Assembly (NCBI RefSeq): GCF_013402915.1
Contig: NC_050720.1
Location: forward strand, 62,001-126,000
Reading direction: 5' to 3'
Origin: Zygotorulaspora mrakii
Taxonomy: Eukaryota; Ascomycota; Saccharomycetes; Saccharomycetales; Saccharomycetaceae
Length of the DNA stretch: 64,000 nucleotides
The position numbers were made by a program, and so were the translations under genes. This document shows, piece by piece, positions 47,238 to 48,383 of this stretch. Numbering within the stretch: position 1 is the stretch's first letter; the number at the start of each line of letters is the position of its first letter. The notes beneath the pieces were generated by a model that searched no databases, was not told the DNA's origin, and worked only from the letters and a program-made list of their open reading frames with translations.

Positions 47238-48203
47238 TTATATATCTTCGACATTGTTTTCAATCTCTTCCCATGGTATGATCGTTCTAGCCTGTGCAAG
47301 ATTGCGCCTTTTTCCTATTCGCTTGGCAGATTGGTTGCCTTTTGGGAGCACAATAATGTTGCTCCCGTCTCTCTTGTTTATTAAATTAGTTTTCAATAAG
47401 TTGATGTCCGTATTCTCTTCTTCAACTTCATTCAGTAACGTTGTTCCATGTAAATTCAGATCGCTTGCACTACTTGTGCATTTGCCTTCAACCTTTTCTT
47501 TATATTCAAACGTGTTCAAACGCTCCTCCACGTATAATTGCCTATCACGTAAGTAGCTGATATCTTTTGAGATTGATACCAATACGTTTTGTGTATCCTC
47601 GAATTGCTTAGTTAGATTTAACATAATGCCACGGGCTGCGATTAACGTCGTCTCAGTTCTCTCCTGAGTGATATCAAGGTGACTTTTCATATGTTCTGCT
47701 AATGCTGCAAGTCCAATTTCCTTATCCTGATCCTCTGGAGAAACTAGAGTGCAGCACCCTTGGGATCCTATTTTTTTCTCCAACCTTCCCAGCTGTTCCT
47801 CCAAATGTGAACCAATTTCCTGTATAGACTTCTCAAGCGCTAAAAGCCATGTTAGTATTTTAATTTCATACTTTTTCAGATTACTCAAGAGTATTTTTTA
47901 TCCTTCTTACCAACCTTTCACTTCTCCATCCTTCGCTGGTGCTTCGGTAAGCCTTTTTAAAATCCCACAGAGTTGTTTTGAATTCTTTTGCAAGACTTTG
48001 ATCAGTTCTGCAGATTTCTCTCGTAAATCAACACTCTCAATTTCCAATTTGCCAGCCCATTCTAATATTTGCTTATCAGCCTCCTCTAGGCGCTCAGCTT
48101 GATGATCAGCGGTATCAATAAGTCGTAATGGCAAGCCTTTCCCAGGGGGCGAGGATAAAGACAACGATACATCAGTAGATACATCATCAGAGTGGCACGA
48201 CAT
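47238..48203 (-). CDS. REC107: Meiotic recombination protein Rec107/Mer2, two exons
   Basis: Exon 1 is 48203-47915 and exon 2 is 47839-47238, giving 296 residues (S. cerevisiae Mer2, YJR021C: 314). Conserved blocks are EEADKQILEWAGKLEIES in exon 1 and RTIIPWEEI at the C-terminus, both seen in yeast Mer2. The middle is coiled coil. Mer2 joins Rec114 and Mei4 to promote Spo11 double-strand breaks on the chromosome axis. The exons meet in frame (EVK|A|LEKSIQEI) only if the donor is GTTGGT. The junction lies at the place equivalent to the S. cerevisiae intron. Expression is probably limited to meiosis by this splicing step. Confidence 0.92.
47840..47914 (-). other. REC107 intron with non-consensus donor
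   Basis: This 75-nt intron reads GTTGGT at the donor (47914-47909), a perfect TACTAAC branch site at 47857-47851, and TTTTAG at the acceptor (47840). The S. cerevisiae MER2 intron is 80 nt, has the weak donor GUUCGU and needs Mer1. An ATACTCTT at 47894-47887 differs from the Mer1 enhancer AYACCCUY at one base. The donor GTAAGA four bases on would hit a stop in exon 2. Confidence 0.88.
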
Positions 48204-48383
48204 ATCAAATACCGACTTGCCTATAATAATTCTCCTTCACCCGTTTCTGCTTTTTTTCTCTCAAGTTTGCCGCCCTCTAAGAAGTATACCTATGTTTGAA
48301 AAGAACCTTCGCTTTTTACCTTACATAAGAGAGCGAAAAAGCAGCAGAACAGTAGGAAACGAAACAAACAGCTTCGAATTACC

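Follow-up and report, generated by a model that had tools for sequence, protein, structure and literature searches.

The window analysed here, a 64,000-nucleotide stretch of Zygotorulaspora mrakii DNA, carries an orthologue of MER2/REC107, which is read as two exons on the minus strand from 48203 to 47238. The features of the gene and of the region immediately upstream of it are the following:

47915..48203, minus strand: MER2/REC107 exon 1, with its ATG at 48203 and phase 1 at its end
47840..47914, minus strand: MER2/REC107 intron, 75 nt, GTTGGT...TACTAAC...TAG
47909..47914, minus strand: non-consensus MER2/REC107 5' splice site GTTGGT, starting at 47914
47905..47910, minus strand: alternative donor GTAAGA, overlapping GTTGGT, out-of-frame, 4 nt downstream
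47887..47894, minus strand: ATACTCTT in the MER2 intron, from intron +21, one mismatch from the Mer1 enhancer AYACCCUY
47851..47857, minus strand: MER2 branch site TACTAAC
Last nt 47840, minus strand: MER2 acceptor TAG
47238..47839, minus strand: MER2/REC107 exon 2, with a conserved C-terminal ARTIIPWEE
48269..48274, minus strand: GGCGGC, a URS1-like core 71 nt 5' of the MER2 ATG, in the intergenic region common to LSM8

An earlier, sequence-only reading had placed an intron with a GTTGGT donor at 47840..47914; these coordinates are exact, with TACTAAC at 47857-47851 and the TAG running to 47840, and it is nearly certain that the intron is real. Five GT dinucleotides at gene offsets 240 to 345 were tried as donors. 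GTTGGT alone joins the two halves of the gene in frame, as had been claimed, and yields a protein of 296 aa; from the remaining four come products of 117 (GTGAAA), 99 (GTAAGA), 98 (GTAATC) and 98 aa (GTATGA), which also bears out the statement that GTAAGA leads to a stop. The unspliced frame stops at 98 aa. The 296-aa product matches the Pfam Mer2 family (PF09074) with an E value of 6.9e-36 and aligns with its best named relative, Mer2 of Torulaspora globosa, at 38% identity overall and with no gap over residues 1-109; the exon junction, in codon 97, falls inside this gapless alignment. These two matches identify the donor without appeal to a consensus. The Mer2 protein search returned eight matches: the protein encoded by the window itself, six named yeast proteins and one unnamed. 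Named Mer2 proteins from T. globosa, Vanderwaltozyma and Kazachstania, among others, span both halves; two from Zygosaccharomyces (176 and 179 aa) cover the junction region without the conserved C-terminal end. When the Mer2 alignment was run as a profile against the PDB, the hits resembled chance coiled-coil matches and were discarded.

Control of splicing by Mer1 is a well-known example of developmental regulation in yeast, studied chiefly in S. cerevisiae, where the MER2 donor is GUUCGU. Among the papers searched, none pairs GUUCGU with MER2, and none joins MER1, Torulaspora, meiosis and intron. The gene in the window and S. cerevisiae MER2/REC107 (regulon MER2, MER3/HFM1, AMA1 and SPO22) are orthologous and have non-consensus donors in common; an AYACCCUY-like element lies between donor and branch site, a probable MER1 is present in the genome, and MER3 and AMA1 orthologues of similar layout are found. 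The two systems differ in the donor itself (GTTGGT here, GUUCGU in S. cerevisiae), in the single mismatch of ATACTCTT and in SPO22, which was not found here; the donor in the window is also overlapped by the out-of-frame GTAAGA. Mer1 is described as binding AUACCCUU in the MER2, MER3, SPO22 and AMA1 introns, which have non-consensus donors, with Nam8 also needed (PMC6380292), and MER2 splicing is put at 13-14% without Mer1 and 53-59% with it in a second source (PMC3226532).

Introns of the same genome were sampled for comparison from 60 stretches around TACTAAC on contig C1 (from a listing of 100 of the 868 places at which TACTAAC occurs), from other loci and from the window. This census comprised 75 distinct TACTAAC sites, 27 of them with a coding-like second exon: two are AMA1 and MER2, 16 were kept as other introns and nine were dropped. 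The kept introns lie in non-target genes and give a sensible joined protein; the donors and acceptors of some sites were picked by eye, and one site (L058) was retained with an uncertain donor choice. Excluded were L028, L073, L093 and three window sites, all in open frames, L081, which resembles plain coding sequence, L070 (DBP2-like), for which no donor lies within range, and L037. The census, in which every intron has TACTAAC, misses those with a different branch site. The gene names (BET4, RPL19, RPS27 and so on) were assigned from the protein ends and are presumptive. The first exons of BET4 (AUG), RPL19 (AU) and RPS27 (AUG) are the same in a table of S. cerevisiae introns (PMC3226532), an agreement that supports the census picks. 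In the NSP1-like (L095) and RPL19-like (L077) genes the intron splits the start codon (A/TG and AT/G, respectively). Two further sites, L045 and L054 (C1 near 40.4 kb and 277.3 kb), have an identical TACTAAC context, and an intron-bearing gene is possibly duplicated there.

The near-match of ATACTCTT to AYACCCUY lies at 47894-47887, as the sequence-only reading had it, with one mismatch. The chance of one or more sites within one mismatch is 0.046 when placement in the window is random, and 0.004 when the MER2 intron is shuffled by dinucleotide. By itself ATACTCTT is weak evidence, and the other known Mer1 targets were therefore inspected. The AMA1 orthologue, identified by elimination as the third CDC20/Fizzy-family gene, has a 101-nt intron, GTAAGC...ATACCTTT...TACTAAC...CAG, in which ATACCTTT stands at +18 with one mismatch. 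The MER3 orthologue, a helicase with DEAD and one Sec63 domain, appears to require an upstream exon, and its candidate intron contains an exact ATACCCTT and the branch site GACTAAC. Five donors and several acceptors keep the MER3 frame. All five donors are upstream of the element; with GTAGGC, picked among them by shape, the element falls at +39 and the possible acceptors at 93, 114 or 120 nt. The shuffle chance for the MER3 intron is 0.31 with one mismatch and 0.023 for an exact site. AYACCCTY within one mismatch, a definition taken from the earlier finding and the literature independently of these introns, thus occurs in three of three target introns and in none of the 16 others (Fisher p = 0.001); it is exact in MER3 only, with one mismatch each in MER2 and AMA1. 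For SPO22, the fourth Mer1 target, the whole genome gave no match to Pfam PF08631, and neither of two frames on the upstream side of HOP1 matches the SPO22 family; loss of the SPO22/ZIP4 gene is not claimed, as it may have diverged, moved or been lost.

The sequence-only reading had regarded a species devoid of MER1 as contrary to its proposal; a probable MER1 was found. A KH_1 search of the genome gave 15 matches in five frames, and just one of these frames, listed below, combines a length near 285 aa with a KH that is single, complete and C-terminal:

C7:194110-194967 (L015 910-1767): candidate MER1 (KH gene), 285 aa, single C-terminal KH

Its KH_1 match covers residues 198-271 of 285 and scores 24.7 bits, against a cut-off of 21.5; a frame of 484 aa has a single partial match, and the remaining three have several each. 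The layout of the Mer1 family is a single C-terminal KH in a protein of about 270 aa. The gene order at the candidate is PTP1-like (tyrosine phosphatase), MER1, SSB-like (Hsp70), HO-like homing endonuclease, and a further neighbour is presumably a BRE4-like frame. In S. cerevisiae, PTP1-SSB1 lies on one chromosome and MER1-SSB2 on another; PTP1-like/MER1/SSB-like would therefore be the expected ancestral order. The HO-like gene (L016 8395-9825, minus strand) adjoins the SSB-like gene, and HO presumably lies near SSB1 in S. cerevisiae in the same manner. Upstream of the candidate, starting at -78, is the URS1-like TAGCCGCCGA, which we take to be the URS1 sequence. When 400 nt upstream were scanned for GGCGGC, cores were found at HOP1 (-91) and MER2 (-71, common to the divergent LSM8 promoter) and none at PTP1, SSB, AMA1 or MER3. 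Protein searches with the candidate returned no named Mer1, one near-identical protein being the sole match, and a PDB search gave weak KH matches only. The near-identical protein, which comes from another source, differs by one residue (R to L) N-terminal to the KH and starts four residues later. With no named Mer1 among the sequence matches, orthology is argued from position, domain and size; a syntenic single-KH gene with these properties is probably MER1.

How weak is GTTGGT? The donors of the 16 other introns are 12 GTATGT and one each of GTAAGT, GTACGT, GTATGG and GTTCGT; A stands at +3 in 15 of the 16, where GTTGGT has T. A rough donor matrix built on these introns gives, in bits, up to 12.0 for GTATGT, 6.4 for GTTCGT, 3.25 for both MER2 GTTGGT and AMA1 GTAAGC, and 1.5 for MER3 GTAGGC: the target donors span 1.5-3.25 and the 16 themselves, scored in sample, 6.4-12.0. 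With the GTTCGT intron left out, GTTCGT scores 3.30, AMA1 3.40, MER3 1.7 and MER2 GTTGGT 0.98, and the proposition that all three target donors fall below all others was dropped: it holds in sample only, since AMA1 is then level with GTTCGT. The 5' end of U1, ATACTTACCT, is present in the genome and was used for donor pairing. The local duplex energies are -7.3 kcal/mol for GTTGGT, -7.9 for GTATGT, -8.2 for AMA1 and -7.7 for MER3, and U1 pairing alone does not flag the targets as weak, because all three are close to GTATGT. GTTGGT is weak for this genome, yet one non-target, the GTTCGT of a BET4-like gene, is about equally weak; that gene is non-meiotic, and donor weakness alone consequently does not amount to regulation. 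The BET4-like gene (L035 2205-2282, plus strand, on C1) is sited downstream of a HORMA-domain gene; its first exon is ATG alone, and its intron begins with GTTCGT, the donor sequence of S. cerevisiae MER2, and has no Mer1-like element.

A tolerated weak donor would allow MER2 to be spliced constitutively, or to be limited by transcription alone, with its element a product of chance or a relic. The BET4-like donor, about as weak when left out of the matrix, is a precedent within the same genome; a published table likewise gives the BET4 intron of S. cerevisiae a low 5' score of 4.30 (PMC3226532); U1 pairs with GTTGGT nearly as it does with GTATGT; and a near-match of the ATACTCTT type is found in about 5% of random stretches. 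What makes constitutive splicing unlikely is that elements are present in all three target orthologues and in none of the 16 other introns, and that a candidate MER1 gene has been kept.

The explanation that we consider likely is that the MER2 intron lies within a working Mer1 regulon, with a Mer1-type switch as in baker's yeast: a poor donor, a probable MER1 and Mer1-type elements in three matching introns make it so in combination. The proposal of the sequence-only reading that the same switch operates here is partly supported by the KH gene and by AMA1 and MER3 introns that combine non-consensus donors with AYACCCTY-like elements, but its argument from the donor fails when taken alone, the BET4-like GTTCGT being similarly weak. 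Meiotic induction, Mer1 binding and the dependence of splicing on Mer1 are what we infer from this pattern. In vegetative cells, U1 snRNP would use the poor GUUGGU donor badly, and the MER2 message would be left unspliced or mis-spliced, so that full-length Mer2 would be lacking. During meiosis, MER1 would be switched on from a Ume6/Ime1-type promoter; the Mer1 KH domain would bind AUAC(Y)(Y)UU about 20 nt into the intron and, with U1 snRNP, stabilise U1 at the donor, and splicing at GUUGGU would then yield the 296-aa protein.

The overlap of two donors in GTTGGTAAGA suggests another off state, mis-splicing rather than retention: vegetative use of GTAAGA would produce a frameshift and NMD, its product stopping at 99 aa, and Mer1 would shift use 4 nt upstream to GTTGGT. 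GTAAGA had been called the stronger donor, which is plausible and not settled. It pairs slightly better with U1 (-8.0 vs -7.3 kcal/mol); the full 16-intron matrix places it slightly below GTTGGT (2.67 vs 3.25 bits), and the matrix without the GTTCGT intron places it ahead (2.82 vs 0.98), so that the order of the two hangs on a single intron. S. cerevisiae SRC1/HEH1 likewise has two close 5' sites, 4 nt apart. The 4 nt are given in a legend that names a 3' site. Hub1 influences which SRC1 site is used and either product is stable, whereas the second donor here would lead to a truncated frame; the same source describes 5' sites as staggered in GCR1 as well as SRC1, and reports for RPL22B a non-productive 5' site whose use leads to NMD (PMC3983031). 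GTAAGA serves as donor in none of the 16 sampled introns, and tandem-donor use is quite unlikely. So is an extension of it in which the overlapping GTTGGTAAGA forms a two-way switch and Mer1 specificity has perhaps been relaxed to AUACYYUU in this lineage, an idea of considerable doubt; if it were true, Mer1 would be a selector of 5' sites and not merely an enhancer. Very improbable is an effect of Nam8, which acts on weak meiotic introns in S. cerevisiae (PMC5648754), or of relieved competition for the spliceosome in meiosis, repression of ribosomal protein genes having been suggested to improve the splicing of meiotic introns (PMC6726248), in either case without Mer1, for this would leave both the shared AYACCCTY-like elements and the retained KH gene unexplained.

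Retention of a Mer1-type switch in this species is expected and unsurprising, because MER1 is found in distant yeast families and, where it has been lost, introns went undetected in three of its four targets. The account from which this is taken describes MER1 as ancestral and reports, for Saccharomycodes ludwigii, the loss of MER1 with no introns detected in AMA1, HFM1 and REC107, three of the four targets (PMC8567612). The same gene set and the same logic of co-inheritance apply here, in the opposite state, a probable factor and three introns having been kept. New are the divergence of both donor and element, an out-of-frame donor that overlaps the first, and a KH gene whose divergence defeats simple searches. 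The BET4-like intron is a warning that weak GTTNGT donors are used outside meiosis as well. The genome apparently keeps the probable factor, with a probable promoter site for it, and matching elements in three targets; the factor has diverged past easy detection by sequence, and the element has largely been kept. This opens to study the joint change of a KH protein, the RNA element that it recognises and weak donors.
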